Shown here one piece after another: positions 10,997 to 31,295 of a stretch of DNA of 64,000 bases. Origin of the DNA: Candidatus Nitrospira neomarina (GTDB taxonomy: Bacteria; Nitrospirota; Nitrospiria; Nitrospirales; UBA8639); contig NZ_CP116968.1 of the NCBI RefSeq assembly GCF_032051675.1, forward strand, positions 2,790,001 to 2,854,000. The letters run 5' to 3'. The position numbers and the translations under genes are program-made. Position 1 is the first letter of the stretch, and every line of letters begins with the position of its first letter. The notes beneath the pieces are model-generated. The model was not told the origin of the DNA. It searched no databases and was given only the letters and a program-made list of their open reading frames with translations.

Positions 10997-11357
10997 AAAA
11001 CTCTCCTCGTTACCGATTGGAACGCCACATTTAGGATATGAGAGATCCACCTGGTTGTTAAACTGGTAGTTAAAAAATTGTCGAGCCTAACAAATTGATT
11101 TTTGGTCAAATAACTAAGAATGTCAATTTGCCATAGGTTCAATGTTTTGATTTCTACATTGTCTGGACCATTATTGATTTCATGAATCCTTATGTAATGC
11201 GACGGTCCTAGATTCTTTGGTATCGTATTCCTGGCTCAGGGCAATCCGTGCTCAGGGCTACAATGCCTTTGAAAAGCATAACCAGGAAACGAGTTTCCCT
11301 CACCCATTTTTAACCAGGGAACTTCTATTTGCAAGTGAACGAAGGGAGTGGCTGACC
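10997..11357. other. Divergent intergenic region
   Basis: About 360 bases between the minus-strand MBL-fold gene and the plus-strand ATPase gene. The frame of the ATPase is open from a TTG at 11217, but that stretch looks unconserved. Promoters for both genes should be here. No operator was recognised. Confidence 0.4.
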
Positions 11358-13820
11358 ATGTCTGATTTTGAAAAGCTCGGAGTGTTGTATTTAGGGAGGC
11401 CATACGACCTCGCCACCAAATCAGCAAAATCCGGCCCCCTCCTCTATGACTCGAAAGATCTGGTCACCCATGCGGTCTGTGTCGGCATGACGGGCAGCGG
11501 CAAGACCGGCTTGTGTATTGGCCTGTTGGAAGAAGCCGCGATCGACAATGTTCCTGCCATCATCATTGACCCCAAAGGCGATATCGCCAACCTCTTACTA
11601 ACCTTTCCTGATCTGCAAGGCAGCGATTTTCTTCCCTGGATCAATCACGATGATGCAAAGAAACAATCCCTCACGCCGGAAGGTTTCGCGGACGAGGAAG
11701 CGGCCAAATGGAAAGCAGGCTTGAAAGCTTGGGGACAGGATGGAGCCAGAATCGCGAAACTCCGTGAAGCAGCGGACTTTCTGGTTTATACCCCTGGCAG
11801 CACGGCAGGACTTCCTGTATCCATTCTCCAATCGTTTGCCGTTCCCTCCCCCAACATCCTTGAAGACGCAGAACTTTTAGGGGATCGGGTGGGCACTACG
11901 GCGACCAGCTTACTCAATCTGGTTGGTCTGGATGCCGACCCCCTGCAAAGCCCCGAACATATTCTGCTGGCCAATGTTCTGAAAACCTCCTGGGAAGCCG
12001 GACAAGACCTCACGCTTTCTTCGCTTATCCAACAGATTCAAACCCCGCCGTTTTCCAAGTTGGGAGTGATGGATTTGGAATCGGTTTTTTCCTCGAAGGA
12101 TCGCTTCGCGTTAGCCATGCGTTTTAATAATTTATTGGGAGCACCAGGGTTTTCTGCATGGCTGGAGGGCCAGCCGATGGATATCGATCAGATTTTGCAC
12201 TCCCCAGCCGGCAAGCCCCGCATCGCCATTTTTTCCATCGCGCACCTGAATGATACTGAGCGCATGTTTTTTGTCAGTCTCCTGCTCACTCAAATGGTCA
12301 GTTGGATGCGAAGCCAATCGGGCACCACCAGTCTGCGCGCACTGCTCTATATGGATGAAGTCTTCGGCTTTTTTCCTCCGATCAAAAACCCGCCATCCAA
12401 AGCCCCGATGCTCACCATGCTGAAACAAGCTCGAGCCTTTGGCCTGGGTGTCGTGCTCGCGACTCAAAACCCGGTTGACCTGGATTACAAAGGATTGGGC
12501 AATACGGGAACGTGGTTTATCGGACGTCTCCAGACCGAACGGGACATGGCCCGCGTATTGGATGGATTGGAAGGCGCGGCGGCCAACAGTCAAGGAAACT
12601 TCAATCGTCAGAAGATGGAGCAGATTATCTCCGGCCTCGGGAACCGGGTGTTTCTCATGAACAACGTCCATGACGATGGGCCGGAAATTTTTGAGACCCG
12701 TTGGGCATTGTCCTATCTTCGAGGGCCTTTAACCCGAACACAAATCAAAACCTTGATGGATCCGGTGAAAGCAGCGCTTTCCGTTTCTACAGCCTCATCC
12801 GCTTCCACCAAAACCCTAACCACCGCTTCTCAATCTCTTCCCGGAACACCTCCTAAAGAAAGCACCACGCATCCACCGGTTCTTCCTCCGGACATCCGCC
12901 AATATTTCATACCCATTCGGGGAGCCAGGCCCGCAATCGGCTCACTCATGTATTATCCACGACTGTATGGTGCCGCATCGGTCCATTACCAGGATGCCAA
13001 AAGGAAATTGGATGAAGTCCGTGAGGTCCAAGCCCTTGTAGAGATAACCACGGGCGCGGTACCGGTCCATTGGGACCAAGCAGACCCTCTCGATATTCCA
13101 CCTGCCGATTTAAATACTCATCTTTCTGACGGAGCACAGTTCGGGGAACTGCCAGGCGCCGCCACCCAGGCGAAATCCTATAAGGAATGGGAAAAGGATT
13201 TTGAGGATTGGGTCTACCGGACACAAACCTTGGATATATTCAGAAATGCCTCGTTAGGGGTGACTTCCGGCCCACATGAATCGGAACGTGATTTCCGCCT
13301 TCGATTACAACAGCTCGTCCGCGAACGGCGGGATGACGAGACCGACGCACTCCGAAAAAAATATGCCGGGAAAATGACGACACTCGAAGATCGAATCCGG
13401 CGGGCCGAACAGGCCGTTCAACGGGAATCCGAGCAGGCCAAACAACAAAAACTCCAAACGGTTATTTCCATCGGCGCGACTCTCTTATCGGTATTCATGG
13501 GCCGTAAAACCGTCAGCCGATCTTCGATGGGCAAGGCCACATCCGCCGTTCGAGGGATGAGCCGAACCATGAAAGAAGGCAAGGATGTGGACCGTGCCGA
13601 GGAAAACGTGGACGCCCTTCAACAACAATTGGTTGCGTCAGAGGCGGAGTTACAAGAAGAGATTCAATCACTAACCGCTCAGTGGGATGTCGAAACCATT
13701 CCCCTGGAGACTCTCAATGTGCGCCCCAAAAAGTCGAATATTTCGACAAAGTTGATGTGTTTGGCGTGGGTCCCGTATTGGGCAGAAACCAACGGCCAAC
13801 AGACTCCAGCGTGGCGTTGA
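11358..13820 (+). CDS. HerA/DUF87-type ATP-binding protein with C-terminal coiled coil
   Basis: The ATG at 11358 is preferred over the in-frame TTG at 11217. The protein is about 820 residues. Near the N-terminus, CVGMTGSGKTGLC is Walker A and IIIDPKGDIANL is the next conserved strand, as in HerA/DUF87 DNA-translocating ATPases. ALLYMDEVFGFFPP is Walker B, and LKQARAFGLGVVLATQNP is the sensor region. The C-terminal third has long charged coiled coils (RERRDDETDALRKKY, RIRRAEQAVQRE, DALQQQLVASEAELQEE) around a short hydrophobic segment. There is no NurA partner nearby, so it is probably a stand-alone ATPase of unknown role. The neighbouring DUF2780 and DUF2959 genes are on the same strand. Confidence 0.85.
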   Translation: MSDFEKLGVLYLGRPYDLATKSAKSGPLLYDSKDLVTHAVCVGMTGSGKTGLCIGLLEEAAIDNVPAIIIDPKGDIANLLLTFPDLQGSDFLPWINHDDAKKQSLTPEGFADEEAAKWKAGLKAWGQDGARIAKLREAADFLVYTPGSTAGLPVSILQSFAVPSPNILEDAELLGDRVGTTATSLLNLVGLDADPLQSPEHILLANVLKTSWEAGQDLTLSSLIQQIQTPPFSKLGVMDLESVFSSKDRFALAMRFNNLLGAPGFSAWLEGQPMDIDQILHSPAGKPRIAIFSIAHLNDTERMFFVSLLLTQMVSWMRSQSGTTSLRALLYMDEVFGFFPPIKNPPSKAPMLTMLKQARAFGLGVVLATQNPVDLDYKGLGNTGTWFIGRLQTERDMARVLDGLEGAAANSQGNFNRQKMEQIISGLGNRVFLMNNVHDDGPEIFETRWALSYLRGPLTRTQIKTLMDPVKAALSVSTASSASTKTLTTASQSLPGTPPKESTTHPPVLPPDIRQYFIPIRGARPAIGSLMYYPRLYGAASVHYQDAKRKLDEVREVQALVEITTGAVPVHWDQADPLDIPPADLNTHLSDGAQFGELPGAATQAKSYKEWEKDFEDWVYRTQTLDIFRNASLGVTSGPHESERDFRLRLQQLVRERRDDETDALRKKYAGKMTTLEDRIRRAEQAVQRESEQAKQQKLQTVISIGATLLSVFMGRKTVSRSSMGKATSAVRGMSRTMKEGKDVDRAEENVDALQQQLVASEAELQEEIQSLTAQWDVETIPLETLNVRPKKSNISTKLMCLAWVPYWAETNGQQTPAWR

Positions 13821-16310: not shown

Positions 16311-19300
16311 ATGACGACTTCCGATACCCCCCAACAAGACACACCTCCGTCGGCAACGCCACCACGTTCAAGAAAAATCTTGAAATGGTTTGCCTGGACA
16401 GGCCTGGGCATACTGGCCCTTCTTCTCTGTGCGGGTCTGTTACTGACCTACTGGTTTCCTTCAGACATGGTCCGGCAAGAGCTGGAAATTCGTCTTTCCG
16501 AGCTTCTTCAAGGAACGGTCCGAATCCAATCCCTTTCGTTTAATCTGCTGACCGGCCTTCGAGTCAGTCAATTGGAATTGACCAAGCCGGGCCAAATCCC
16601 ACTCTCACTCGAACACCTGACATTGGATTACAGCCTTTTCGGACTGTTGAAGGGCACCTTCACCATCAACGAAATCTCCATCGATCAGGCAGACATATCA
16701 CTCAATCTGCCTGAACTCACAAAAGCCGAACCAGAACCTCCTCCCCCACCCTCTCCCGAACCGGCAGCCCTTCCGACTCTTCCTGTCTCGATTGATCTGG
16801 AAACCCTTAAAATTATCGAGAGCAATATCCAGCTTGTGGTGTCCCACGACCTCACAGTGAACCTGACCCATCTGAATCTCCAGAGTTCGGGAGGTGTGTC
16901 ATCGGATGATGCACATCTCAACGGTACGCTGCAGGTTAAGCAGGTCGCGGTGGCGCTCCAAGGGAAACACATTCAACTGCCCCTGGTCGTGAAGTTTGAC
17001 ACTGCGATTCATCTTCCGACTCAACACCTCGATCTGAAACAGCTCACCATTGAATCGGATCCGGCCCTTCGTCTCACACTTGCCGGAACCATCAACGAAT
17101 TCTTAACCCAAAAAGCCGTGAATCTTTCCCTTGCCGATACGGATCTTGACCTCGGGAAACTTATGGCCCTCGCTAAAGATTTTGTACCGCCGGAATTTGC
17201 CACGGCTTCAGTTGGGGGGAATCTGTCTCCCTCATTCACCCTCACCGGCTCACTTCCCGATTCCGGATTTGAGGGGACCATTCACGCGGGATTAGACGGG
17301 AAAAATGTCGAATTGCATCTACCAGGCCACGCCCTGACCGTGGGACCGACAAATCTGGCATTCGCTGCCAAAAGACTGCAGATCAAGGAGAACCTCCCGT
17401 TGACGGGAAACGTCTCGGCGAAACTTTCTACTCATGATGTGACGTTTCAAGCCTATGGAATACAAAACTTCGGTTTGAGTCTCCAGAGCGACTATCAGGC
17501 CTCCGGACCCTTTTCCGGAATCCTGCAGGTCTCCGGCACCACGGCATTACCCGGCGATTTACTTGGCACACCATTCACTCTTCCTTTTGCCGTGACCCTC
17601 GATACCAGTGGCAATCATCACACCCGTCACATAGAGGTAAAGCATCTGAACGCAGACCTTAGCCCCTATGGCACCTTACAGATAAACGGCGCGGTACAAC
17701 CTCATCCTGCCCCGAAGGAAGGCATGGATGCTTCGCTGAAACTTCGTCTGTCCCCAAACATTAGCGCTCTACTCTCCCTCATCCCAAAAGACCGGCTTCA
17801 AGGACTCGTTCTCCAGAAAGGATCCGAACCGGATACCTTTGTGCTGCACGCCACCGGAGCACTTCATCCGGATTTCCGTCCCGAATGGGCAAAAGCGACG
17901 GCGGCGCTCAAGCTGTCCTCTCTTCAAGCTCAATTGAAACCCTTCGGCGCAGGAGGCACCATGCACCAACTCACCTTCCTGCTTTCTTCCGGCTATCAGG
18001 AAACCAATGGTGCGATTCAGGGAACGGTCGGATTTTCGTCACATTTCTCTGACCTCCATGCGGCTGAGACGATGACAATCGGGACCAGCCATGTGATCCT
18101 GAAATCTCACTTTCAAGGCCATCTCTCTCCGACCTATCAACCCACGAACCTTCGCTCCGAAGACCAGCTCCAGGTCACGCTCAGCAACCTGACCTACCAG
18201 GATCCCTCCCTGACGGCCACCCTTCCTTCAATCAGACTGACATTAAAAACCAAGGAAGATGTGCTCAAACAGGATTATTTACTGGAGAGCCTGCGACTGA
18301 CCAGCGAAGAAATATTAGAGATGGGGATGAAAGCCCGGTATCAGCAGGCGAACCAACAATTTGACGTAGATCTGCAGCTACCCCTTCTCCATGTCGGCAA
18401 CCTTCTCCCACATCTATCGGGACCGCTCATGAAGGGAGTAGATGAAATCAATCCAAAAGGACGGGTCAGCCTGATTCTGCGGACAGCGGGTAGGGTCCCC
18501 ACGGAAGATGATCTCAAGAAATTGACCCTTCCGTTGGGAGTCAACGGAAAACTCACGATGCGGGACCTTGAGGGAGCCGTCTCGGGATATCGGGTTCAGG
18601 GAGGCAACGGCACCATGACCATGGCCTATTCCCCACAAGCGGCACCTCAAACCCAGCTCACCACTGATGTCACGCTCAATCGTATTCACCTGCCGGAAAC
18701 CCTACCGATCAGGGAACTAGCCAACACTTCTTTGCACGTGAACCTATCGTCTCCTGATCTCAATGAGGTCCAGATTGATCCGATCCATGTGACATCAAGG
18801 GGAGTCGACCTTTCCATAAAGAGCACGGTGGTGGGCTTGCGTGAGCTATTGTCCTCCAACGCGCCCCATGGCACCCAATTGGCAAAACTCTTTGCCCAAC
18901 TGCACACCCGCCTGGCTCTGGATGTGGAACCCTTTCAAGAAGCTCTCGAACCATTGGGGATTCAGGGAAACGGCAAGGCTCTGGTCACCCTGTCCATGCT
19001 CAAAAAAGAACAAGGGAGTCTGGATGCCTCTGTGGAGATCGGGTCTGAAACACTTTCACTGACTCGGGATGGCACGGAACTCCGTGACATGAACGGTGGA
19101 ATACAGCTCAGAAAATCACTGGCCTGGAACCCGGATGGACTCCCGTCTCCGCCGAAAAAGCCATTTCAACCGTCCGACCGTATTGCCCAGCTAAAATCGT
19201 TTTCCCGAAAAGGACAGACCCTCACCATTGATCGCCTTCAGCTCGGGCCATTCACGGTCGAAAACCTCTCGACAAATTTGGCGTTTGAGCAACAGTCCTT

Positions 19301-19886
19301 GAAAATGCAAAATCTCGCCATGAATGTGTTGGGTGGAGGGATTGGGGGAAATGTCATCATCGCCGCCGAACATCCCTTGCGTCTATCGGCGGAGTTTGAA
19401 ATAGCGAATCTCGATGCCAACCGACTCATTCAAACAGAATCCAAAATCAGAGGGGATAGCAACATCGCCGCCACCATTGGACTCACAACCCTATTGCAGG
19501 AAACCACGGGAGCCGTGGATTTGAGCCGGTTAGAATGCAATCTGCACATTACGCACATCGGAAACGAAGCGCTGGATCGTCTCCTCGTGTTCCTGGACCC
19601 GGAAGGGAGCAAACCGACGATTTCCAATGTTCGCTCCCAACTAAAATTCGCGAATCCCTCCCGGGTGATGGTGGAAGTGGCCAGAGGGCAATTAAATCTG
19701 ACGATCCACTTTCAAGGCAGTCTGATCCCCACCTTTAGATTGGAGCGCATCCCGATCGCCAAAATGAAAAACATTGAAAAACTCACCGCCGCCATCCCCA
19801 ACTGGGAAGACCTGGACAAGGTATTGGAATTAATCGGAGCCGAGACCTATTCGTTCACCCCTGAAGGAGAGATCGTGCTTCAATAA
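16311..19886 (+). CDS. AsmA-like envelope protein
   Basis: A 1191-residue protein with a Pro/Thr-rich cytoplasmic N-terminus, one transmembrane helix at about residues 25-48, and a long beta-rich periplasmic part. The segment after the helix (ELEIRLSELLQGTVRIQSLS, LRVSQLEL) has the AsmA/TamB-type pattern of alternating beta strands, as does the C-terminal region (LKSFSRKGQTLTIDRLQLGP, NLAMNVLGGGIGGNVII). AsmA-like proteins bridge inner and outer membranes and are thought to move phospholipid. A proline-rich linker (EPEPPPPPSPEP) lies near residue 145. It precedes the lipoprotein/CHAT cluster on the same strand. The exact subfamily is uncertain. Confidence 0.75.
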   Translation: MTTSDTPQQDTPPSATPPRSRKILKWFAWTGLGILALLLCAGLLLTYWFPSDMVRQELEIRLSELLQGTVRIQSLSFNLLTGLRVSQLELTKPGQIPLSLEHLTLDYSLFGLLKGTFTINEISIDQADISLNLPELTKAEPEPPPPPSPEPAALPTLPVSIDLETLKIIESNIQLVVSHDLTVNLTHLNLQSSGGVSSDDAHLNGTLQVKQVAVALQGKHIQLPLVVKFDTAIHLPTQHLDLKQLTIESDPALRLTLAGTINEFLTQKAVNLSLADTDLDLGKLMALAKDFVPPEFATASVGGNLSPSFTLTGSLPDSGFEGTIHAGLDGKNVELHLPGHALTVGPTNLAFAAKRLQIKENLPLTGNVSAKLSTHDVTFQAYGIQNFGLSLQSDYQASGPFSGILQVSGTTALPGDLLGTPFTLPFAVTLDTSGNHHTRHIEVKHLNADLSPYGTLQINGAVQPHPAPKEGMDASLKLRLSPNISALLSLIPKDRLQGLVLQKGSEPDTFVLHATGALHPDFRPEWAKATAALKLSSLQAQLKPFGAGGTMHQLTFLLSSGYQETNGAIQGTVGFSSHFSDLHAAETMTIGTSHVILKSHFQGHLSPTYQPTNLRSEDQLQVTLSNLTYQDPSLTATLPSIRLTLKTKEDVLKQDYLLESLRLTSEEILEMGMKARYQQANQQFDVDLQLPLLHVGNLLPHLSGPLMKGVDEINPKGRVSLILRTAGRVPTEDDLKKLTLPLGVNGKLTMRDLEGAVSGYRVQGGNGTMTMAYSPQAAPQTQLTTDVTLNRIHLPETLPIRELANTSLHVNLSSPDLNEVQIDPIHVTSRGVDLSIKSTVVGLRELLSSNAPHGTQLAKLFAQLHTRLALDVEPFQEALEPLGIQGNGKALVTLSMLKKEQGSLDASVEIGSETLSLTRDGTELRDMNGGIQLRKSLAWNPDGLPSPPKKPFQPSDRIAQLKSFSRKGQTLTIDRLQLGPFTVENLSTNLAFEQQSLKMQNLAMNVLGGGIGGNVIIAAEHPLRLSAEFEIANLDANRLIQTESKIRGDSNIAATIGLTTLLQETTGAVDLSRLECNLHITHIGNEALDRLLVFLDPEGSKPTISNVRSQLKFANPSRVMVEVARGQLNLTIHFQGSLIPTFRLERIPIAKMKNIEKLTAAIPNWEDLDKVLELIGAETYSFTPEGEIVLQ

Positions 19887-19906: not shown

Positions 19907-19992
19907 TGTCATTCTGAGCTGAAGGCGAAGCCTCTGACTAAGCCATGGCTCAGTTGAGCTGGACACAGATCCTTCGTCCGACTCAGGATGAC
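19907..19992. repeat. Intergenic repeat B, copy 1
   Basis: The ends TGTCATTCTGAGC and CAGGATGACA are inverted, a common bacterial intergenic palindrome. An inner 37-base stretch (19940-19976) is identical to 20079-20115 in copy 2. Confidence 0.85.
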
Positions 19993-20047
19993 AAAACGGA
20001 GGGCGGGATGAACGACCGAGTTACCTTCTGCCTCGTTCATTGTTTAT

Positions 20048-20132
20048 TGTCATGCTGAGCAGCGCGAAGCATCTCGCCAAGCCATGGCTCAGTTGAGCTG
20101 GACACAGATCCTTCGCTTTACCCAGGATGACA
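20048..20132. repeat. Intergenic repeat B, copy 2
   Basis: A direct repeat of copy 1, about 140 bases away, with the same inverted ends and a 37-base identical core. A short diverged relative appears at about 45615-45651 (CACAGATCCC then TCAGGATGACA). Each copy could fold as a hairpin between the AsmA-like gene and the next lipoprotein gene and might act as an mRNA stabiliser or attenuator. Confidence 0.85.
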
Positions 20133-20233
20133 TGAATCCGGTTCTAGATGACCATTTGGAGATTTTTCTTCAGCAGCTTTCCGGAATTTGATAAGATAAG
20201 GAAGACCCTACCCTCTTGAGGAGCCGATTAGTT

Positions 20234-20854
20234 ATGTCCTACCTCCGATTATCGTCTTACACCAATATGCACACGTTCTTTTCCCATCCTATGTCCTTGG
20301 TCATGATGACCCTCCTTCCGGCCCTCCTGACAGCGTGCGGCGGTCCTTTAGTCGGGGTGACCGTGGTTGATGAACGCACGGCCTTGGAAAACCAGGTGCT
20401 TGGCACGTATCAAGAACTCAATCAGCAAGTCATGCTGGTGGCGTCCGTTCGCTATATCGATCCGAAGGGAAAATTGAAACAGACCCAGGAACTTCCCCCG
20501 GGGAAAAAGGACGTCGTGCGTGCCCTCCAACGAGTGTCTTTCAACAAAGATGATCTCAATCGCTATAAATCATTAGGAATCATCGGAGAAAACAATGAAG
20601 GCGGTGTCACCCTCCTGGAGCCGGAAAAAGTCCAACCTGACGATCGAGCATTTGTTGAGAATTTGATTAAGGAGGAGAATGAAGATCGCCTCGCGATCAT
20701 GGGCCGGATTGTTGAAACCAACGAGACTCTGACACCTTCAGAATTACCACGGGTCCACAAAATGTTTGCCGCACTCAATCGGGATAAAGCACTCAAGGGA
20801 GAACGAATCCAATTGGACAATGGGACATGGACTCAAAAAGACGCCACACCCTAG
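20234..20854 (+). CDS. Lipoprotein, DUF1318-like
   Basis: The ATG at 20234 is preferred because GAGGAG lies about ten bases upstream. The next in-frame ATGs are 20267 and 20291. The signal ends in lipobox LTAC. The mature part has NQVLGTYQELNQQVMLVASV and, later, LGIIGENNEGGVTLLEP followed by VENLIKEENEDRLAIMGRIV. That GE...G...N.(D)R..I pattern resembles DUF1318/YdbL, small periplasmic proteins seen next to AsmA-type proteins such as YdbH. The location after an AsmA-like gene supports this. Its end overlaps the start of the CHAT gene by 28 bases, so the two are likely coupled. Confidence 0.65.
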   Translation: MSYLRLSSYTNMHTFFSHPMSLVMMTLLPALLTACGGPLVGVTVVDERTALENQVLGTYQELNQQVMLVASVRYIDPKGKLKQTQELPPGKKDVVRALQRVSFNKDDLNRYKSLGIIGENNEGGVTLLEPEKVQPDDRAFVENLIKEENEDRLAIMGRIVETNETLTPSELPRVHKMFAALNRDKALKGERIQLDNGTWTQKDATP

Positions 20855-23800
20855 CTCAAGACTCCATGTGGCGAGGTCATCTTCTTTCTCTCCCTCCGCA
20901 CGAGGCTCGAAAGAGCACATCAGGAAGAAGAGAGAGCCGATTCTTTCATTTTCACCGAGCCCTATCCGGCTTAATCGCCTTCACCGGCCTGATCGGATTC
21001 CTGTGCTCCTCCCTCCCCGCTCTCGCTACGACACCTGAACGCCTGACCACTCACCCGGCCCTGGATTATCAACCGTCTGTCTCCATGGATGGACAAACGC
21101 TTGCATTCGTTTCTACTCGTTCGGGAAATTCGGATATCTGGGTCCAAACTCTCAAGAGTGCCGCCCTCACACTTCCCCGACAAATGACCACTCACCCGGC
21201 CAGCGATCAGGAACCGGCCTTGAACCGGGATGGGACCCGACTTTTGTATGTGTCGCATAAGTCCGATCCCCGTGGCGATGTGTACCTCCTGGATCTGATC
21301 ACCCGTGAGGAACAACGACTGACGGATTTAACCAGCGGGGATGGGTCTCCTCAGTGGGATCAAGAAGAACAAGGATTTTTCTATCTCAAAAGTGATCCGC
21401 TTCACAACACCTCCGCCATCTACCGGAAAACTTTCTCAAACCAGTCGGAAGAATTGGTCGTGGCCCAGGCCACCAGCTTTTCTGTGAATGGTCAGGGACA
21501 GCTCCTGTATTCCACTGGTGCCCATTTGACCTTATTGAATCTTCAGGACAACAGCTCCACCTCCTTCGACCAGGACAGCCATGCTCTGGATCTCTGGCCT
21601 GCCTTGGACCACAACCCCTCTGACCTCACCACGACTCGTCACCTGGTGTTTACCCGCTATGACCGGGACACCAACGATGACGGGCTGGTTGATACCGATG
21701 ATGAATCGTCCATTTGGATGAGACTCTGGGGCCCACAGCAGGCTGAATTCCAAACAATCTATCGGATCACTCCCGCGCACCAATTTCATATTTACCCTGC
21801 CGTGTCCGGGGATTTTCTCTATTACTCCGACCTAAAAGCCGGCGATATTTTCCGGATGGACATCCCCGCGTTTCTCAGGGATTACGTCGACCTCGATCAC
21901 GCCAAATCGCTGGCCGCCTCCTATCAGGATCACGGGCAACTGGATCTCGCGCTCCTGGTTCTGGGAAACATTTCTCACAATCTGTTGGCACAACAACCTC
22001 CTGACGCACGAGCAGAATTTGACTTTTCCCTTGCCGAAGCACAGACACAGGAAGGAAATTTTCCTGCGGCCCGCGAATCGTTGGAGCCCTACACCCGCCA
22101 ACCGGGACGGACCGGCGCGTTGGCCCGGATCTTTACCATCGTCTTGCGGGTCCAGGAGCAGGCACAGGGCATCAGCTCTGCGGCAAGACGCCGGTTGGTC
22201 ACCACCGGCGTGTCCGATTTACTCACCATCGGGCAGGAGCACCGGGACATGGATGAGGTGTACGGTCAAGCCCTCATTGAAGCCGGACGGCTTTACCTCT
22301 TTGCGGACGATCCCCTGACCGCCTTGGAATACCTCGTCAAAGTCGAAGATCTGCACAACAAAGAGATTCGAGCCAAGGGTCTTTTCACCAGAGGGGAAGC
22401 CTATCGGATTCTGGGAGACGCTCCCAATGTGATCCGCGTGTTCGTGGATGTCATTCAATTATTTGGCGAGCGTTCCTCCTGGGGCAAACGTGCTATCCAA
22501 AAGGTCGTAACACTCTCCCAACAGGGTGAAACGGAACGTGAGCGCCTGACCGCCTTAAACAGGATCATCCCCCAATATCCTGACCTTCCCGTCCTGATCG
22601 CTACCGCCCGTTTAACCATTGCCGATCTCTATCACGAACAGGGAGAACAACTGTCCGCTCTGGAAACTCTGGATTTCGTCATCCCGGTTCCCGACCTTCC
22701 CCACGAACTCGTCATCCAGGCCTATCGAAAAAAGGCCGAAATCCTTTCAGAATCGGAACGGTACCAGGAAGCGGCGGATACCTATGCGGCCTTGAGTCAA
22801 TTTACCGGGGAAAATCAGACTGAGCTCGAGGGAACCAAAAATCTTCTCATTTTACAATTGGTGAAAAAAGCCCTGAAGGACCGGAAGATCGGGGAGACCC
22901 GCATCGCCGCCAAATCGCTGAAACAGCTCATCGAGCAATATCCCGAATCCGTGGAAGCCCATCGGGCGTATATTGAAACCAAAGTCATGCTCAAAGAGAC
23001 GATGGAGGTCCAAGCCTGGTATACCACCTTAGTTAAGACACATCCCGATCACGCGGTCTATCAGTATGGACAGGCCCTGGCATTGTCCTATGCCGAACCG
23101 CCCGACCTCCCGGTTGTGATCCGCCTCCTCCAACGAGCCATGAAAAAGGATCCCGCCCTGGGCTATGTCCACCAAACCCTGGGATGGGCCTACGAACAAA
23201 CCGAACGGTCCGGCAAGCAAGGTTACCTTGAGAAGGCCGAGCAGGAGTATCGAATCGCGTTGGAGCTCAACGATGCCGGTCGCTTTCCCGACGTAGAATC
23301 CCAACTGCTGTTGAATTTAGGAAACACCTATCTGGCGCTCTCGAATGCCCGCGAAGCCTATCGACACTACCGGCAGCGCGAGGAACAATTCACTCCGTCA
23401 GGCGAATCTATCACCGAAATGCTCTATCGCAAAAACTATGGGGAAGCCTGTTTTAAAGCCGGACGCACCGAGGAATCGTTGGCGCAATACCAGTTGGCCT
23501 TACGGAACGTCCCTCCCGAGCAGTCAAGCCTACAAGCCGAAATCCTGGAACGCATAGGATTGTCCCATCAGGACATCGGCCAATATGCCAAAGCCATTGA
23601 GGCGTTCTCCCGGGCCTTAGTCCTCAACCGTGAGTTAGGGCAGGAACACAATGTCACATTGCTCCAGCGAAATATCGGGGTCAACCTGTTTAACCTGAGC
23701 CGCGCCAGCGAAACGGGTGGACGCGAGGAACTCAAACAAGCGTTGGGCAGTTACTTTACCAGCCTGGAACACCTCACCACCGGCGGCGGTAAAACTCTTT

Positions 23801-26800
23801 CCAAGGGACCGGGCTTGTTCAATGTGAATGTGGCCCTCAATGAAGGGGGGTCTCAGGCGGCCAGCGGGTTCGATCGAATGGGCGAACAAAAGCTCATGTT
23901 CAGTTATATCGCCAGCACCTATGAGCAATTAGATGAACCTGATCCCGCTCGAGATTTTTATCGCAAAAAACTCGCGCTCCTCAATCAGGGAGCATCGGCT
24001 GCGCAGGATGCGGCAACTCTGACAGAAAAAGCCATTGTCCTGAATCGGCTGGGAGTGCTTTCCCACCAATTAGATGAACCTGAGCAGGCGATGGAGTCCT
24101 TTCGTCAATCCTTGAATTACACCCGGACGTTGAATATCCCGTTCGGGACCAGCGTCAATATTTATAACTTGTCGACATTGGCCGTCGAAAGCATCCTACA
24201 GGGCCACACCCCGGACCACAGCCTTGTGGAGGCCATCACCTCGGGCATTCAGGATCTTCAACAACGAAACTATGAAGACCGCAATCTGTTTTTCACCCTC
24301 ACCAACACCGCCATGCTCCTGTCCCTTCTTCCCGACCCATCGCCGGACCAGCGCCTCAAGCCGGCCGCTGCCGTCCAACGCATGCATGAGCAGTTCACAA
24401 CCAGGACGCTTCCGTGGTCGTATTACCAAAAGGCCGACTCGCTCCTGAACAAGCCGGCTCTCTTTTCAGATTCAGAACGACTTCCCGCTCAATTCCTGGT
24501 GAAGTTGAATCAGGCCGAACTGGCACGCACATCGGATCAACCTCAGGTCTATCAGAACATTCAGGACGACTTACTTAAACTGGTGGAAGACCGGCAATCG
24601 CCCAATAGCTGGTTGTGGTATCTATCTCAAGCCGAAGCAACCGCGGATCCCCTTAGGCACGAGGAGCTTCTCACCCAATCTGTTGAGGCCGTCCTTCGTT
24701 TCCCCGCGCAAACCGACCCTCCCACGGGTCAGACCAATACCTGGCCCGCATATGAACGTCTGATTCAGCTCTCGGTTGATCAATTGATTAAAGCAGGCCG
24801 GCCCGACGACGCCTTTACCGTGGCGGAGCAACTGAGCCTTCGACAAGTAACCAGCGCCGTCTATGAAGCACTGGGAGAAAAAATCTTCCTCAAAGGGTTG
24901 GGAGACTATGAACCGGAATTACACTCGCTACTCGGAGAACTCCGGCAGGCCAGAAATCACGGGAACGTCGCGGCCATTGAAGAACTGGCTCCTGCCCTTC
25001 AAGACACGCTCTATGCCCTGTTTGAAGAATATCCCTGGGCCACCGCCTCCTTCTGGGCGTATCCGCCGACCAGAGACCTCATATTTTTGGGAGTGGACGC
25101 GCAACACCCCTACCTGAAAATTCTCAAAGGCATGCAAGGCTATCATGGCTTTGTGCATGATGGGGACACGCTCCATTACAGCCCGCTGGTGGTCACCGAA
25201 AAAGGAATCACGGGGGATCAAGAATTTCACAAGCGGCTCAAACAATCCGCCTCCGCCTATGTGGCGATGCCGCAGGAACTGGAATCCACCCTTCCTTCCC
25301 TGACGCTCGATCGGAAACCGCTCACGTGGGTCAGCAACTTCTATGATTTCCTGAATGGCTATCATCAGCGCAGCCTCTTTTTTTCTCACATCACCACCTC
25401 AAGCACGTTTCTCCCTTCCACGCCTCCCAGTGCGGGGGAAATTCCATTTGTGCTCCAGCAATTTAGCGGGGTCGAGACGCACGATCATCCGCTGGCCAGC
25501 CATACCAATATTGCCGCGTTTCTAAAAAATCCTGAGACGTTCGCCTTTGAAGTGCAGGAAGCTCAAAATGTCCGGGAATTTGTCTCCGTGCTTGATTTTG
25601 CCGGCAGTCAACACCATTCGATCCTGCTCTTCGGCGGTGTTCCGTCCTCATCGCCTTCTCCATGGGTGCTGATCTCCTCGCTCCTGCGGGCGGGATTTCC
25701 TCATGTCATCGTGAGCCGGACACCGCTCGATTCCCCAACCGCCACCAGGTTTCTGAATCAATATCTTACGCATCTCAATACGCTTCCTCCCGATGAAGCC
25801 GTCATGGCCGCGTCAAAGGATCTGTGGGGATCGGACACGGGAAAATACCCCTTCCGCCACTACGGATTTGCCGGCATGGGTCCGGACGAACGCCAGGAAT
25901 ATGCCGCCTCCATCTATGACCAGGAAGTGGCGGAAGCCATTCACGCATTTGAGACCAAAGACTTTCCCGCTTCTTTACGGCATATCGAGCATGCACTCGC
26001 CCTTATCGAGCATGCAAAAAAACGACAGGATTTCAAAGAACTCACCACCCTGGCCGTCGAAACCGCCTTTGAAGTCAGCGATTATGAAAAGGGCCTATTC
26101 TTTCAACAGAAACTTCTGGATGCGCTCACGCCGGAGACTCCGGCCAACGAACGGGCTGAGGCGGAATATCGCCTGGGCATCCTGCATTCCCGTCTCGAAC
26201 ATTTTGACCTCGCCGTGCAACATCTCGAACAGGCCAACCAGATCTGGGAACAAGGCGAACAGCTTGATCGACTCGCGGAAGGCATGGCGACATTGGGAAT
26301 TGTCCGTGAAAATATGGGGGCCTATACGGAAGCCCTGGACCAATTCAACCAGTCGTTTTCCCTGTATCAGGAAATCGGGGAAATGGGGCACACGGCGTTT
26401 CAATACCGTCGAATCGGGCGTATTTATTACCTTCGATTGGGCCGGTATGAGAAAGCCCGTGAAAACTTTCTGGCCGCGCTCAAGCTCTATCAGGAACAAA
26501 GCGATCCCCAGGGAGAAGCCGAGGCGCTGTACGAAGTGGGATTGACCTATGAAAAAGTCGGCCTGTTCGACCAGGCCGCGGAACGCTACCACCAGGCCCT
26601 TGCCATTGCGAAAGAACTGGAGAACCCCAAGCTCCTCTCGACGGGCGATCTCTACCTCGCCAATGTGGCCTGGTTCCAAGGGAACTATCAAGCGGCCTTT
26701 CAACTTTTAACCCAGGCCGACAAAAAAGCCAAACAGGCCAATGACCCGCAATTACGCATTATGGTGAAAAATACCCGCGGGCTGATTTACTGGACACTGA

Positions 26801-28731
26801 ATGACACCGACAAAGGACTCGTCCATTTACATGATGCGGTCACGCTCAGCCGGTCTTCCAATATTCAAACCGAGTTAGCCTCTTCGCTGAACAATCTTGG
26901 CTTGATCTACCGGCAACGGGGCGACCATGCCACCGCACTGGACTATTTTCAACAGGCGAAAACGCTTGACGAGTCCCTAAAAAGCCAATGGGGATTGGGC
27001 TATGACCATCGGAACATCGGCATCTCCCTACTGGCTCTGGGACAGTTGGAAAAAGCCGAAGAGCATTTCATCAAGGCCGAACAGATCAGCGCCGAGATCA
27101 ACAATGTCATCAATTGGGTTAAGGCCCTGCTGGAACTGGGCAATGTCAATAAAGCGCTGCTGCGACCCGAACAGGCCCTGGGCTATTACGAGCGGGCGCA
27201 TGAGATCTCCCGGCGATACGGCATCAAGGAAGTGGAATGGCGGGCCGCAGCGGGCAAGGCGACCCTGTTGCGAAAGGAAGGAAAGCTGCCGGACGCCCTG
27301 GACTGGTTTACCAAAGGCGTCGAGGTGGTGGAAGGCATGCGGGCCGCTCTGAAAATTGATGAACTCCGCAATAGTTTCCAGACGAACAAACTGGATCTGT
27401 ACCGGGACATCATTACCCTGCTCATCACCATGAACCGGACCGATGACGCCTTTAATTTTTTAGAACGCTCCCGATCCCGAAGTTTTATCGACCTGTTGGG
27501 CAATCAAAAACTCGAATTCAAAAACCAGGGCGACCGGGAAACCTGGACCAAAATCAACAGGCTGGCTTCCACGGTGGATTCACTCAAATCGGAATTAGGA
27601 TCGTATGAGGAGCCTCCTGCCGACCTTCAGGATCGGTATCGCAATACGAAGGCTCTCTATGAAGAAGCCATCCTGGAGGTCAAACAGCAGAATCCGGCCC
27701 TCAGTAGTTTTGTATCCGTGGATCCGCTCAATCTGGAGGGCGTGCAACAGCTCCTGGAACCTCGAGTGGGACTGCTCACCTACTTTATGACAACAGACCA
27801 GCTCTACCTGTGGCTCATTACCAAAGAACGGACCATCTTTAAAACGGTGTCGGCGAAGGAAGAAGATCTCACGCGCCTGGTAACCCGCTATCGGCAACTC
27901 GTTCAGCATCTGGAACCCGTTGATGATGAATTACAGAAACTCTATGGATCTCTGATTCAACCGGTTGAAGCCAACATCACAAACCTGGAGTATTTGGGAA
28001 TTATTCCCGATGGACCGTTACACTTTCTCTCCTTTGCCGCACTCAAACACGGTCCGGCATATCTGGTGGATGAGATCCCGCTCTTTTACGCACCCTCGGC
28101 CAGTGTTTTTCAATTCACCTTTGCCAAACGGCAGGCCGTGAAAAATGACAAAGTCCTTGCGATCGGAAATCCGGATTTGGGAAATTTCAATTACGATCTT
28201 CCGCTGGCCGAATTAGAGGCCAAAAGCATCAAATGGAATTATCCCAATATGGATATTCTGACCGGAACGAAAGCCACGAAAGAATGGGTGGTGAAGAATA
28301 TCTCCCGATATGGCATCATCCATTTAGCGGCCCATGGGGAATTCGATGAGGGCAATCCGCTGTTGTCTTCACTCTGGCTGGCTTCAGAAAACCCCGAAAA
28401 CCGCCGACTGACCGTCAAGGAGATTTTCGGTTTGGAATTGAACGCGGATCTGGTGACGTTAAGCGCCTGCCAAACGGGTCTGGGCAAATTGGAGGCCGGA
28501 GAGCTCATCGGCCTGAACCGCGCATTTGTCTATGCCGGCACGCATGCCCTGGTGTCCGCCCTGTGGCGGGTGGATGATCTCTCCACCTCGGTGCTCATGA
28601 AACATTTTTACCGAAATTATGTGACGGCGAATAAAGCCAAAAGTTTGCGGCAAGCGCAACTCATCGTCAAAAAAGACTTCCCTCACCCGTCCTATTGGGC
28701 GGGGTTTAGTTTAATCGGAGACTATCAATAA
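20827..28731 (+). CDS. Giant exported propeller-TPR-CHAT protein with two CHAT-like domains
   Basis: A 2634-residue protein. A hydrophobic export signal lies at residues 45-67, ending in ALA. Residues ~70-345 are TolB/PD40-type propeller repeats (VSMDGQTLAFVSTRSGNSDI, LNRDGTRLLYVSHKSDPRGD). Many TPRs follow to ~1350. Residues ~1400-1690 look like a degenerate CHAT domain: LASHTN with His1559, then LLFGGV, where Gly1604 sits 45 residues on. More TPRs run to ~2200. The C-terminal domain is a full CHAT protease: LAAHGEFDEG with His2503 and TLSACQTGLG with Cys2548, also 45 residues apart, followed by GLNRAFVYAGTHALVSALW. CHAT proteases are caspase-like cysteine peptidases. Export is unusual for the family as I know it. 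It is clustered with lipoprotein, SH3 and M48 genes. The n-region before the signal is long, and the ATG at 20866 is an alternative start. Confidence 0.88.
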   Translation: MDSKRRHTLAQDSMWRGHLLSLPPHEARKSTSGRRESRFFHFHRALSGLIAFTGLIGFLCSSLPALATTPERLTTHPALDYQPSVSMDGQTLAFVSTRSGNSDIWVQTLKSAALTLPRQMTTHPASDQEPALNRDGTRLLYVSHKSDPRGDVYLLDLITREEQRLTDLTSGDGSPQWDQEEQGFFYLKSDPLHNTSAIYRKTFSNQSEELVVAQATSFSVNGQGQLLYSTGAHLTLLNLQDNSSTSFDQDSHALDLWPALDHNPSDLTTTRHLVFTRYDRDTNDDGLVDTDDESSIWMRLWGPQQAEFQTIYRITPAHQFHIYPAVSGDFLYYSDLKAGDIFRMDIPAFLRDYVDLDHAKSLAASYQDHGQLDLALLVLGNISHNLLAQQPPDARAEFDFSLAEAQTQEGNFPAARESLEPYTRQPGRTGALARIFTIVLRVQEQAQGISSAARRRLVTTGVSDLLTIGQEHRDMDEVYGQALIEAGRLYLFADDPLTALEYLVKVEDLHNKEIRAKGLFTRGEAYRILGDAPNVIRVFVDVIQLFGERSSWGKRAIQKVVTLSQQGETERERLTALNRIIPQYPDLPVLIATARLTIADLYHEQGEQLSALETLDFVIPVPDLPHELVIQAYRKKAEILSESERYQEAADTYAALSQFTGENQTELEGTKNLLILQLVKKALKDRKIGETRIAAKSLKQLIEQYPESVEAHRAYIETKVMLKETMEVQAWYTTLVKTHPDHAVYQYGQALALSYAEPPDLPVVIRLLQRAMKKDPALGYVHQTLGWAYEQTERSGKQGYLEKAEQEYRIALELNDAGRFPDVESQLLLNLGNTYLALSNAREAYRHYRQREEQFTPSGESITEMLYRKNYGEACFKAGRTEESLAQYQLALRNVPPEQSSLQAEILERIGLSHQDIGQYAKAIEAFSRALVLNRELGQEHNVTLLQRNIGVNLFNLSRASETGGREELKQALGSYFTSLEHLTTGGGKTLSKGPGLFNVNVALNEGGSQAASGFDRMGEQKLMFSYIASTYEQLDEPDPARDFYRKKLALLNQGASAAQDAATLTEKAIVLNRLGVLSHQLDEPEQAMESFRQSLNYTRTLNIPFGTSVNIYNLSTLAVESILQGHTPDHSLVEAITSGIQDLQQRNYEDRNLFFTLTNTAMLLSLLPDPSPDQRLKPAAAVQRMHEQFTTRTLPWSYYQKADSLLNKPALFSDSERLPAQFLVKLNQAELARTSDQPQVYQNIQDDLLKLVEDRQSPNSWLWYLSQAEATADPLRHEELLTQSVEAVLRFPAQTDPPTGQTNTWPAYERLIQLSVDQLIKAGRPDDAFTVAEQLSLRQVTSAVYEALGEKIFLKGLGDYEPELHSLLGELRQARNHGNVAAIEELAPALQDTLYALFEEYPWATASFWAYPPTRDLIFLGVDAQHPYLKILKGMQGYHGFVHDGDTLHYSPLVVTEKGITGDQEFHKRLKQSASAYVAMPQELESTLPSLTLDRKPLTWVSNFYDFLNGYHQRSLFFSHITTSSTFLPSTPPSAGEIPFVLQQFSGVETHDHPLASHTNIAAFLKNPETFAFEVQEAQNVREFVSVLDFAGSQHHSILLFGGVPSSSPSPWVLISSLLRAGFPHVIVSRTPLDSPTATRFLNQYLTHLNTLPPDEAVMAASKDLWGSDTGKYPFRHYGFAGMGPDERQEYAASIYDQEVAEAIHAFETKDFPASLRHIEHALALIEHAKKRQDFKELTTLAVETAFEVSDYEKGLFFQQKLLDALTPETPANERAEAEYRLGILHSRLEHFDLAVQHLEQANQIWEQGEQLDRLAEGMATLGIVRENMGAYTEALDQFNQSFSLYQEIGEMGHTAFQYRRIGRIYYLRLGRYEKARENFLAALKLYQEQSDPQGEAEALYEVGLTYEKVGLFDQAAERYHQALAIAKELENPKLLSTGDLYLANVAWFQGNYQAAFQLLTQADKKAKQANDPQLRIMVKNTRGLIYWTLNDTDKGLVHLHDAVTLSRSSNIQTELASSLNNLGLIYRQRGDHATALDYFQQAKTLDESLKSQWGLGYDHRNIGISLLALGQLEKAEEHFIKAEQISAEINNVINWVKALLELGNVNKALLRPEQALGYYERAHEISRRYGIKEVEWRAAAGKATLLRKEGKLPDALDWFTKGVEVVEGMRAALKIDELRNSFQTNKLDLYRDIITLLITMNRTDDAFNFLERSRSRSFIDLLGNQKLEFKNQGDRETWTKINRLASTVDSLKSELGSYEEPPADLQDRYRNTKALYEEAILEVKQQNPALSSFVSVDPLNLEGVQQLLEPRVGLLTYFMTTDQLYLWLITKERTIFKTVSAKEEDLTRLVTRYRQLVQHLEPVDDELQKLYGSLIQPVEANITNLEYLGIIPDGPLHFLSFAALKHGPAYLVDEIPLFYAPSASVFQFTFAKRQAVKNDKVLAIGNPDLGNFNYDLPLAELEAKSIKWNYPNMDILTGTKATKEWVVKNISRYGIIHLAAHGEFDEGNPLLSSLWLASENPENRRLTVKEIFGLELNADLVTLSACQTGLGKLEAGELIGLNRAFVYAGTHALVSALWRVDDLSTSVLMKHFYRNYVTANKAKSLRQAQLIVKKDFPHPSYWAGFSLIGDYQ

Positions 28732-28951: not shown

Positions 28952-29479
28952 ATGCCAGACCGTATCGCTCGAGTGATCGTCGGAATTGTCTTCCTCACGT
29001 TGGCTGCCTGGATATTACCCTCATCCAATTGGGCGGCCACACTTTATGCCAAGCAGGATGACGTCAAAGTTAATGCAGAGAAATCTCCGACCTCCGCGGT
29101 CATCGCCACCCTGGCGCTGGGAGATGCCGTCACCGTGCTAGCCGAGGAAGGGCGACTGGCCAAAGTCAAAACCGCCACAGGAAAAACCGGCTGGGTGTTT
29201 AAATTCCGGCTGGCAGAAGAGAAGCCTTCCACCGGTGGTGGCGGGCTTGGCCTCTCCGGACTCACGGGACGGAAAACCATTGCCGCGCGAGAGTCACGGG
29301 CAGGAGGTAGCATTCGAGGCCTCAAGGAATCCACCGAACAATATGCCAAAGCCAAAAATATCAAAAAGGAAGACCGTGATGCAGTGGATCGCATGGAGGC
29401 CTTTTCCATTGCCCCGGATGAATTGATGCAGTTTAAAAAAGCGGGAAACTTAGGAGAATTTTCGGGAGGTGTCCAATGA
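28952..29479 (+). CDS. Exported bacterial SH3-domain protein
   Basis: A 175-residue protein with a signal peptide (hydrophobic residues ~8-25). Residues ~30-90 (ATLYAKQDDVKVNAEKSPTS, VTVLAEEGRLAKVKTATGKT, GWVFKFRL) form a bacterial SH3 (SH3b) domain, which often binds peptidoglycan or other envelope partners. The C-terminal part is helical and charged. A good site (AAGGGGG) precedes the ATG. Its stop overlaps the ATG of the M48 gene by four bases, so the two are translationally coupled. Confidence 0.82.
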   Translation: MPDRIARVIVGIVFLTLAAWILPSSNWAATLYAKQDDVKVNAEKSPTSAVIATLALGDAVTVLAEEGRLAKVKTATGKTGWVFKFRLAEEKPSTGGGGLGLSGLTGRKTIAARESRAGGSIRGLKESTEQYAKAKNIKKEDRDAVDRMEAFSIAPDELMQFKKAGNLGEFSGGVQ

Positions 29480-30375
29480 ATACCGGAAAAATTTTGGCGG
29501 GTGTCAGCATTCTGAGTCTCCTCTTGTCCAGCATGGGATGCGGTGGATCACAATCCGGGCAATCGTCACAACAAACGGATCTCATTGGAGGTATCGGAGC
29601 GGCCCTTGGCATGAAACAACAGAAAATCGACCTTCTGAAAAAAGGCGTCGGTGTCGTTCAAGCGATGGAGCCTATCGGAGAAGAAGAGGAAATCACGTTG
29701 GGGGAAGCGGTCGCGGTGGAAGCCTTTAGCCGTTTCGGCGGGGAATATTCCAATCCAGCCTGGACACGCTATATCAATCTGGTGGGAAAGACGGTGGCGG
29801 AAGTCTCGGACCGGCCAACCCTGAACTACCATTTCGCCATTCTGAACAGTCAGGAACAGAATGCCTTTGCCGCTCCCGGTGGCTATATCTTCATCACCGT
29901 CGGGCTCTTGAAGACCTTGAAAAATGAAGCCGAATTAGCGGGCGTGTTGGCCCATGAGATTGCGCATGTCACCCAGAAACACATGCTGGACGCCATTCGC
30001 CGGGGAGCCCTGATGGGCAGTGTCTCGGAACTGTCACTCACCGCCATGAAACAGGATCCGGCGCTGTTCTCCAACGTCATCGACGAAATGACCGACCTCT
30101 TGTTCACCAAAGGTCTGGACAAGGACAAAGAATTTGAAGCCGATGTGGTAGGCGTAGAGTATGCCTATCGGGCAGGCTATAACCCGCAAGGACTGGAAGA
30201 TTATCTGCAGACATTGGCCAAAGAAGAAGGGCATGTGGAGTCCAAGTTTTTCACCACGCATCCTTCCACCACCCTCCGTATCTCCAAAATCGATACACTC
30301 TTAAAAGAGTATTCCGACATCAAAAATCTGCCGTTTCTCGCGGAGCGGTTTCACCAATATGTGAAGGCGGGATAG
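29476..30375 (+). CDS. M48-family metalloprotease lipoprotein
   Basis: A 299-residue protein with lipobox SSMGC. LAHEIAHVTQKHMLD carries the zinc motif His160-Glu161-x-x-His164, and KEFEADVVGVEYAYRAGYNP supplies the third ligand Glu221, the M48 pattern. It ends soon after FFTTHPSTTLRISKIDTL, so it has no TPR tail of the BepA kind. It is expected to cleave or quality-control envelope proteins in the periplasm. Its coupling to the SH3 gene and its position beside an exported CHAT protease make two different protease classes in one cluster. Confidence 0.92.
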   Translation: MNTGKILAGVSILSLLLSSMGCGGSQSGQSSQQTDLIGGIGAALGMKQQKIDLLKKGVGVVQAMEPIGEEEEITLGEAVAVEAFSRFGGEYSNPAWTRYINLVGKTVAEVSDRPTLNYHFAILNSQEQNAFAAPGGYIFITVGLLKTLKNEAELAGVLAHEIAHVTQKHMLDAIRRGALMGSVSELSLTAMKQDPALFSNVIDEMTDLLFTKGLDKDKEFEADVVGVEYAYRAGYNPQGLEDYLQTLAKEEGHVESKFFTTHPSTTLRISKIDTLLKEYSDIKNLPFLAERFHQYVKAG

Positions 30376-30455: not shown

Positions 30456-30578
30456 TCAACACTGAGTTGCGTAAAACCCTGAGAAGCCTATAAATTATTT
30501 CGTCAATTAGAGCCATTTTTCTGTCTGGGTTTTCAAAATTAACCACTCTGTATACTTGAAAGTTGGCTTTTGAAATTA

Positions 30579-31295
30579 ATGATTGATCGATACATCACAC
30601 TGAACCGGGCTGTTCGGGCAACCGCAAGACTTTCTCGGGAATTGCTTGAAGCAGAGAGATATGACGAAGGCAGCTACGCCGTCGGAGTCCTCATTTCATT
30701 AATATCACGCTGTTTGTCTGATCTTGAGCGTTTATGGCCCAAAGATCTTTCCGCAGAAGATATTAAACGCATCAACACTCTCTTAGGACAAGGAAAGCAA
30801 AGCGCTTACTATGACATTCTTGAGACACACATTCCAAACCTGGAGAATACAATTGATGACTATTTTCTAGTTCAGCCGTCCAGTGACCTTGCTTATGCAG
30901 TTCTGGATCTCCTACATCCTCGCGTTACAACCGCCGCATACGCTCACTTTCGTGGGGGTCGCTTCCGGGATGCAGTTCTAAATTCCATAGTTGTTGTCTT
31001 CGACATGTTGCGAGAACGGACAGGACTCGATGCCGATGGCGCAGAATTGGTAACAGAGACTTTTTCATTACAACGTCCGCGGTTAGTCTTTACTTCACTT
31101 GATACTGAATCGGGGCGAAATGAGCAAAAGGGTTTCATTCAAATTTTACAGGGTTACTATCTCGGAATTCGCAATCCGAAAGCCCATTCTCTGACAATCG
31201 AAACAGACCAGGTTTCGTCTGCACAGTACCTTGTCTTATCGAGCATTCTATGCAGAAAAATAGAAGAAGCAACCAAAATCGACACCGATCAATAA
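30579..31295 (+). CDS. Hypoth_Ymh/TIGR02391-family HEPN protein
   Basis: The ATG at 30579 is preferred over the TTG at 30570. The protein has 238 residues. The C-terminal ~110 residues have the TIGR02391 (Hypoth_Ymh) pattern: LLHPRVTTAAYAHFRGGRFR, then RDAVLNSIVVVFDMLRERTG and GYYLGIRNPKAHSL. RNPKAH fits the Rx4-6H motif of HEPN ribonucleases. The family is found in phage-defence and restriction islands. Its base composition is lower in G+C than the preceding cluster, consistent with an island boundary here. The N-terminal half is helical and not recognised. Confidence 0.78.
   Translation: MIDRYITLNRAVRATARLSRELLEAERYDEGSYAVGVLISLISRCLSDLERLWPKDLSAEDIKRINTLLGQGKQSAYYDILETHIPNLENTIDDYFLVQPSSDLAYAVLDLLHPRVTTAAYAHFRGGRFRDAVLNSIVVVFDMLRERTGLDADGAELVTETFSLQRPRLVFTSLDTESGRNEQKGFIQILQGYYLGIRNPKAHSLTIETDQVSSAQYLVLSSILCRKIEEATKIDTDQ

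Follow-up and report, generated by a model that had tools for sequence, protein, structure and literature searches.

A predicted exported protein of Candidatus Nitrospira neomarina combines an intact CHAT peptidase domain with a second, catalytically dead CHAT-fold domain

Can one bacterial chain hold both a live and a dead CHAT protease domain, and what would such a protein do in the cell envelope? The question is raised by a single gene in a 64,000-nucleotide stretch of the Candidatus Nitrospira neomarina genome (contig NZ_CP116968.1, positions 2,790,001 to 2,854,000; hereafter the window). A first-pass annotation had described its 2634-residue product as carrying an export signal, a TolB-type propeller, long arrays of tetratricopeptide repeats (TPR) and a full C-terminal CHAT domain, together with a second CHAT-like domain inside the chain that had kept its catalytic His and lost its Cys. 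Hydropathy, Pfam and NCBIfam searches bore out the first four of these features; the second CHAT fold was found as well, and by our analyses it lacks both catalytic residues.

The C-terminal domain matched the CHAT family PF12770 over profile positions 3-289 of 289 with an E-value of 1.5e-65 (221.9 bits, cut-off 24). The proposed catalytic pair, His2503 and Cys2548, was confirmed at a spacing of exactly 45 residues and was invariant in a first set of ten homologues and then in all 20 full-length sequences, at overall identities down to 33%. This is the best-conserved part of the protein. An AlphaFold model of the domain, built from a shallow alignment, reached a predicted local distance difference test score (pLDDT) of 54, and the identity of the domain rests on the Pfam match. 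Judged from sequence, the CHAT peptidase domain here is intact and strongly conserved, with predicted peptidase activity.

For the internal domain, structure prediction had been named in advance as the test that could overturn the claim of a second CHAT fold. Run on residues 1318-1690 with an alignment of 25 homologues, AlphaFold returned a CHAT fold with a pLDDT of 90.9 and a predicted template modelling score of 0.91. Foldseek matches of this model at E<=0.001 were the Craspase TPR-CHAT protein, DdvA, SAVED-CHAT, separases and one axonemal central-pair chain. VIA gave Z scores of 12-17 for these same CHAT, separase and axonemal matches, mostly over 260-320 residues, with gingipains ranking lower (Z 10.6-11.1) and unrelated rows at Z 7-8; the separase-type protease fold scored Z 13-17 but is common to all CHAT proteins. 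At the sequence level, PF12770 profile positions 215-272 matched residues 1616-1672 (E ~4e-4), although the internal domain did not reach the curated cut-off of 24 (19.7-20.6 bits, E 3e-4 to 6e-4). Searched singly, the internal domain matched PF12770 in 15 of the 25 relatives (best E 5.8e-5), making it the commonest family, with all matches sub-threshold; a separate search found the same match in the Candidatus Nitrotoga copies described below. With wider alignments, hhalign paired positions 1-368 of the internal unit with 28-462 of the C-terminal unit along one collinear path (P=4.1e-5). In a profile comparison by parts, the N-terminal part alone stood out with a score of 29.2 against a shuffled null of 11.5 +/- 2.3 (maximum 24.2); the core alone stood out less, scoring 24.2 where column shuffling gave 15.2 +/- 2.5 (maximum 22.8).

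A rival explanation, which the motif argument of the first-pass annotation would by itself permit, takes the internal segment for an alpha/beta domain unrelated to CHAT that resembles it by chance. Consistent with this, BLAST, phmmer and single-sequence hhalign found no match between the two domains, and the Pfam score lies under the curated cut-off. Profiles made from close relatives only gave a weak pairing (probability 4.5), and a sequence search of the PDB with the internal-domain profile returned chance matches only. However, the model, the fold search, the wide profiles and the independent Pfam matches agree on CHAT, and the fold search already largely refutes the chance explanation, which we regard as extremely improbable. 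The AlphaFold model, fold search and hhalign path together indicate that the internal domain is a diverged copy of the whole pre-CHAT-plus-CHAT unit and thus, on model and profile evidence, a second CHAT-fold domain in the same chain; it presumably arose through duplication of a TPR-CHAT unit.

The claim that this domain had kept its His and lost its Cys did not hold. The letters are as described: LASHTN contains His1559, and Gly1604, 45 residues further, is the second Gly of a Gly-Gly pair. Among the 75 His residues of the protein, three have a Gly 45 residues later and His1559 alone has a Gly-Gly there. The column of His1559 is nevertheless variable in the 25 relatives (His 6, Asn 5, Gln 3, Thr 3, Lys 2, Gly 2, Arg 2, Met 1, Val 1), and in a wider set it holds His in 3 of 20 sequences. 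The catalytic His of CHAT domains comes after the strand equivalent to residues 1562-1565, and in the AlphaFold model His1559 ends a helix (1550-1559) before that strand. The hhalign path likewise places His1559 opposite residue 2494 and not His2503, which is paired with Leu1566, while in our reading of the strand register from models and alignment the counterpart of His2503 is Asn1568. The true counterpart of the catalytic His is therefore predicted to lie around 1566-1568, and neither residue 1566 nor residue 1568 is His in any of the 25 relatives. By strand register Gly1604 is a plausible counterpart of the catalytic Cys, within about 2-4 residues, and no relative among the 25 has a Cys at 1600-1604. 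With no His at the catalytic place and no Cys at the site, the internal domain is doubly dead, which makes the 45-residue spacing of His1559 and Gly1604 a coincidence. As read from alignment and model, the domain is without both dyad residues and unfit for Cys-His chemistry.

The loss of catalytic residues from the internal copy would also fit a pure scaffold, in which neither CHAT domain cuts in the envelope and the fold serves protein binding. Against this, neither the C-terminal dyad nor the residues around it vary among homologues of at least 33% identity, as expected for catalysis, and we consider a pure scaffold quite unlikely. The two domains also differ in their rate of change. In the Nitrospirota homologues L021 and L022 the C-terminal CHAT domain is 68% identical to that of the window protein and the internal domain 23%, indicating that sequence constraint on the internal domain is relaxed while the fold is retained. 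When L020 is included the ranges are 68-74% for the active CHAT and 23-35% for the internal domain, which evolves far faster. Two other His residues, neither of them at the catalytic place, are the best kept of the internal domain: His1597 (25615-25617), where the strand leading to the lost Cys begins, is the best-kept His nearby (25 of 25 relatives; 18 of 20 in the wide set), and His1440 (25144-25146) is present in 24 of 25 and in 18 of 20. These two residues could mark a putative binding site.

The coordinates of the gene, its domains and its neighbours are collected in Table 1. The gene has two candidate start codons, ATG at 20827 and ATG at 20866, of which the latter may be the true start. 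Residues ~45-68 form the top hydropathy segment of the whole chain and end in ALA, and homologues with a readable N-terminus keep a comparable hydrophobic signal, although the signal sequence itself is not conserved. We infer from these features that the protein is exported to the periplasm. The region that follows contains a Pfam PD40 propeller repeat at residues 71-106, and the NCBIfam TolB propeller model TIGR02800 matched it under its curated cut-off. Export had been put forward as new for CHAT proteins, a claim that must be withdrawn: by heuristic reading, and where the N-terminus could be read, nearly all CHAT-bearing open reading frames of Nitrospirota and of cyanobacterial plasmids carry a signal peptide or lipobox, so that predicted export is ordinary in this TPR-CHAT branch.

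Table 1. Features of the CHAT gene, its product and the neighbouring genes (window coordinates).
Feature	Position	Strand	Evidence
Gene for exported (predicted) propeller-TPR-pseudoCHAT-TPR-CHAT protein	20827..28731	+	Open frame of 2634 aa; full-length homologues in Nitrospirota and Pseudomonadota
Sec-type signal sequence, residues ~45-68, end GFLCSSLPALA, after a long N-terminal extension	20959..21030	+	Hydropathy
TolB-like PD40 beta-propeller, ~residues 69-355	21031..21891	+	PF07676 E=3e-13; TIGR02800 E=4.8e-14
First TPR array, ~residues 356-1130	21892..24216	+	Many matches to Pfam TPR families
Internal degenerate CHAT unit, residues 1318-1690 (pre-CHAT helices, CHAT core from ~1406)	24778..25896	+	AlphaFold2 model, CHAT/separase matches, sub-threshold PF12770, hhalign
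His1559, earlier proposed as retained catalytic His	25501..25503	+	Helix residue, not conserved
Gly1604, approximate counterpart of catalytic Cys	25636..25638	+	Strand register
Second TPR array, ~residues 1691-2165	25897..27321	+	Pfam TPR families
C-terminal active-type CHAT peptidase domain, residues 2296-2634	27712..28728	+	PF12770 at residues 2368-2632
Catalytic His2503 (predicted)	28333..28335	+	Invariant in full-length homologues
Catalytic Cys2548 (predicted)	28468..28470	+	Invariant in full-length homologues
AsmA/DUF748-like membrane-anchored protein, 1191 aa (putative lipid-bridge superfamily)	16311..19886	+	PF05359, TamB model; syntenic in homologues
DUF1318 (YdbL-type) lipoprotein, 3' end overlaps CHAT gene start	20216..20854	+	PF07027, lipobox LLTAC; syntenic
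Exported SH3_3-domain protein	28952..29479	+	Syntenic in Nitrospirota and Nitrotoga
M48 metalloprotease lipoprotein (BepA/LoiP-like)	29476..30375	+	PF01435 E=9.8e-32; lipobox SSMGC; syntenic

Full-length relatives were found within the window's genus, its family and its order (Nitrospirales), but many related genomes lack one; the internal-domain profile matched 25 of the 236 genomes of the order. The layout recurs in a distant Nitrospirota genome (G154), in a protein of 2839 aa whose internal part has decayed further still. Among Pseudomonadota, the profile matched 12 of 398 sampled genomes, and the nine homologues fetched from them are open reading frames of 2565-2804 aa with 33-48% identity and an intact C-terminal dyad. 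By these comparisons the layout of propeller, TPR, dead CHAT, TPR and live CHAT is conserved in Nitrospirota and Pseudomonadota down to 33% identity.

Two copies stand apart. In Candidatus Nitrotoga, a betaproteobacterial nitrite oxidiser, strains BS (L009) and M5 (L012) carry copies 82% identical to the window gene, and no copy was found in the 148 other members of its family that were searched. The M5 gene lies on a contig with a Proteobacteria-typical tsf-uppS-cdsA-dxr-rseP-bamA-lpxD-lpxA-lpxB cluster (gene names read by eye), and a stretch adjacent to it has no match in the genome of the window. Because of this cluster, the idea that the Nitrotoga copy stems from a contaminated assembly can be rejected for M5, though not for BS. 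The absence from the rest of the family, the M5 contig context and the unmatched adjacent stretch make horizontal transfer between nitrite oxidisers likely, in either direction.

Association with envelope genes, also suggested by the first-pass annotation, was upheld by the neighbouring genes, their export signals and their synteny. In the window the AsmA-like and DUF1318 genes lie upstream and the SH3 and M48 genes downstream of the CHAT gene, and all four products carry an export signal. The DUF1318 lipoprotein passed the PF07027 cut-off of 27 (E=2.4e-9, 38.1 bits). The AsmA-like protein matched DUF748 (PF05359) with E=1.7e-9 and 36.7 bits (cut-off 50), AsmA with 24.0 bits (cut-off 29.8) and the TamB model with E=4.6e-9 and 34.7 bits, far under its cut-off of 825. 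Across Nitrospirota and Nitrotoga, DUF1318 directly precedes the CHAT gene in 13 of the 13 loci that reach that flank, as well as in the distant Nitrospirota genome, and SH3 and M48 follow in every locus that reaches there. The AsmA-like gene is present in most of these loci and was not seen in Nitrotoga M5 or in the 3 kb available of L048. Both Nitrotoga copies have DUF1318, SH3 and M48 neighbours, and strain BS also the AsmA-like gene. Among the nine Pseudomonadota loci, six have AsmA-like and DUF1318 genes upstream, without SH3 or M48 matches, and in the remaining three (L096, L099, L100) the place directly upstream is taken by genes for hybrid histidine kinases and response regulators.

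The two-component genes speak for one alternative role, that of a signalling protease whose propeller senses an envelope ligand and which cuts a regulator as in a regulated-proteolysis relay, the operon neighbours being co-regulated housekeeping genes and not substrates. The TolB-like propeller and dead CHAT domain would then serve as binding modules, and the CHAT protein of PDB entries 8rot/8rw5, DdvA, is named a transmembrane anti-sigma factor. However, no sigma or anti-sigma gene was identified beside the window gene, and DUF1318 adjacency is far more constant than that of the kinases; we consider this role unlikely. Even less probable is a protease for defence or cell death, of the bacterial gasdermin or Craspase type. 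CHAT proteases do cut gasdermins and Csx30 in defence (PMC9729208), and HerA-like and HEPN-like genes lie within the window, but the protein is predicted to be exported, its core set of genes stays together with envelope genes in different phyla, and PADLOC returned only a generic TPR match for the CHAT protein itself. This role is very unlikely.

Most likely the protein is a regulatory protease of separase-like type, located in the envelope, in which the dead CHAT unit serves as scaffold or sensor, and we give about even weight to the protein being an exported regulatory protease of the cell envelope with a dead CHAT platform. The exported protein would be a very large separase-like cysteine peptidase of the envelope, and its degenerate CHAT unit a non-catalytic platform acting as scaffold, sensor or substrate-binding module. 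By analogy with Craspase, in which the binding of target RNA exposes catalytic residues that are otherwise buried (PMC9729208), the peptidase may be autoinhibited and triggered by a ligand, with binding at the propeller, the TPRs or the dead CHAT shifting its conformation. Once active, it would cut an envelope protein at a specific site and so tune lipid transport or assembly at the outer membrane. The likeliest target would be operon-encoded, either the AsmA-like protein or the DUF1318 lipoprotein, for which the cleavage of Csx30 by Craspase offers a precedent of a neighbour-encoded substrate (PMC9729208); this is a weaker guess than the regulatory role itself and, in our estimate, doubtful. 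We assign a similarly low probability to a widespread, as yet undescribed system of the envelope in which a separase-like protease with two CHAT units, only one of them live, cleaves an AsmA-type lipid bridge or its lipoprotein partner and so switches outer-membrane lipid supply. In other phyla too the CHAT gene lies beside lipid-bridge-like and lipoprotein genes, a hint that the envelope is under a conserved form of proteolytic control not described before.

Several points weigh against the envelope protease. A catalytic thiol is unusual in the oxidising periplasm, but the protein is nearly free of other Cys, the mature chain after predicted signal removal having only Cys2548 and Cys875. The AsmA-like protein matches its families solely under curated cut-offs, and the replacement of AsmA and DUF1318 genes by kinases in three Pseudomonadota homologues means that the link to lipid transport is not universal. 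Finally, no YnbE-like gene was seen; the short open reading frames in the gap of the window lack a lipobox by eye, and no genome-wide search was made. YnbE belongs to the E. coli ydbH-ynbE-ydbL lipid-transport locus, in which YdbL, a DUF1318 protein, is paired with a member of the AsmA superfamily for which a part in moving phospholipid to the outer membrane has been proposed. The window resembles that locus in having an AsmA-like gene and a DUF1318 (YdbL-type) gene together and differs in its CHAT protease, which is absent there.

Among known CHAT proteins, the Craspase TPR-CHAT protein (Csx29) shares the order of TPR then CHAT and the His-Cys dyad and is what the internal domain matched best in Foldseek (VIA Z up to 16.5), but it is cytoplasmic, has one CHAT domain, is bound to a CRISPR effector and lacks propeller and signal sequence. 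DdvA is membrane-linked by its name, has His and Cys at the aligned places and scored Z 15.6 against the internal domain, but is 991 aa long with one CHAT domain seen. The exported TPR-CHAT proteins of Nitrospirota and cyanobacteria share the signal peptide or lipobox, the TPRs and a C-terminal CHAT domain (mostly 25-38% identity to the C-terminal part), but at mostly 470-1190 aa are too short for a propeller and two TPR-CHAT units. Eukaryotic separase (C50) similarly places long helical repeats before a caspase-like protease, with the Z scores given above, but it is nuclear or cytosolic, cuts cohesin and has no second full upstream CHAT unit with its own TPR array; the bacterial protein may work like a separase, though not classed as one. 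Within clan CD there is a precedent for a protease-dead partner in gingipain, whose subdomain A resembles the active subdomain B, whereas an inactive second caspase-like domain in separase is disputed (PMC4626109).

In the VIA comparison, the axonemal central-pair chains PDB 7n6g_1N (residues 2151-2765) and 9ijj_B scored Z 15.6-17.1 against the dead CHAT model, which suggests that a ciliary central-pair protein has a separase/CHAT-like, perhaps inactive, domain.

Most of what is known of CHAT proteases comes from CRISPR systems, gasdermin defence and cyanobacterial development. The novelty here lies in a chain with two CHAT units, one of them dead, in its propeller and its size, and in an envelope operon that has been conserved. 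A conserved exported family with live and dead CHAT domains, whose operon holds AsmA-like and DUF1318 genes in both Nitrospirota and Pseudomonadota, would bring the bacterial envelope within the range of caspase/separase-type proteolysis and, with both domains in one chain, would offer a natural pseudo-protease to test. The AsmA-like link in turn raises the testable question of whether outer-membrane lipid transport is under proteolytic control.

Three further features of the window were recorded. Two 69-nt direct repeats, 87% identical and 139 nt apart, lie between the AsmA-like and DUF1318 genes (19925-20132). Positions 11217-13820 encode an 867-aa HerA/DUF87-like ATPase with weak PADLOC matches to mad8 and HerA, followed by DUF2780, DUF2959 and Transgly_assoc genes, and positions 30570-31295 encode a TIGR02391/Hypoth_ymh protein with PADLOC matches to Aga_HEPN and PD-Lambda-3_B.

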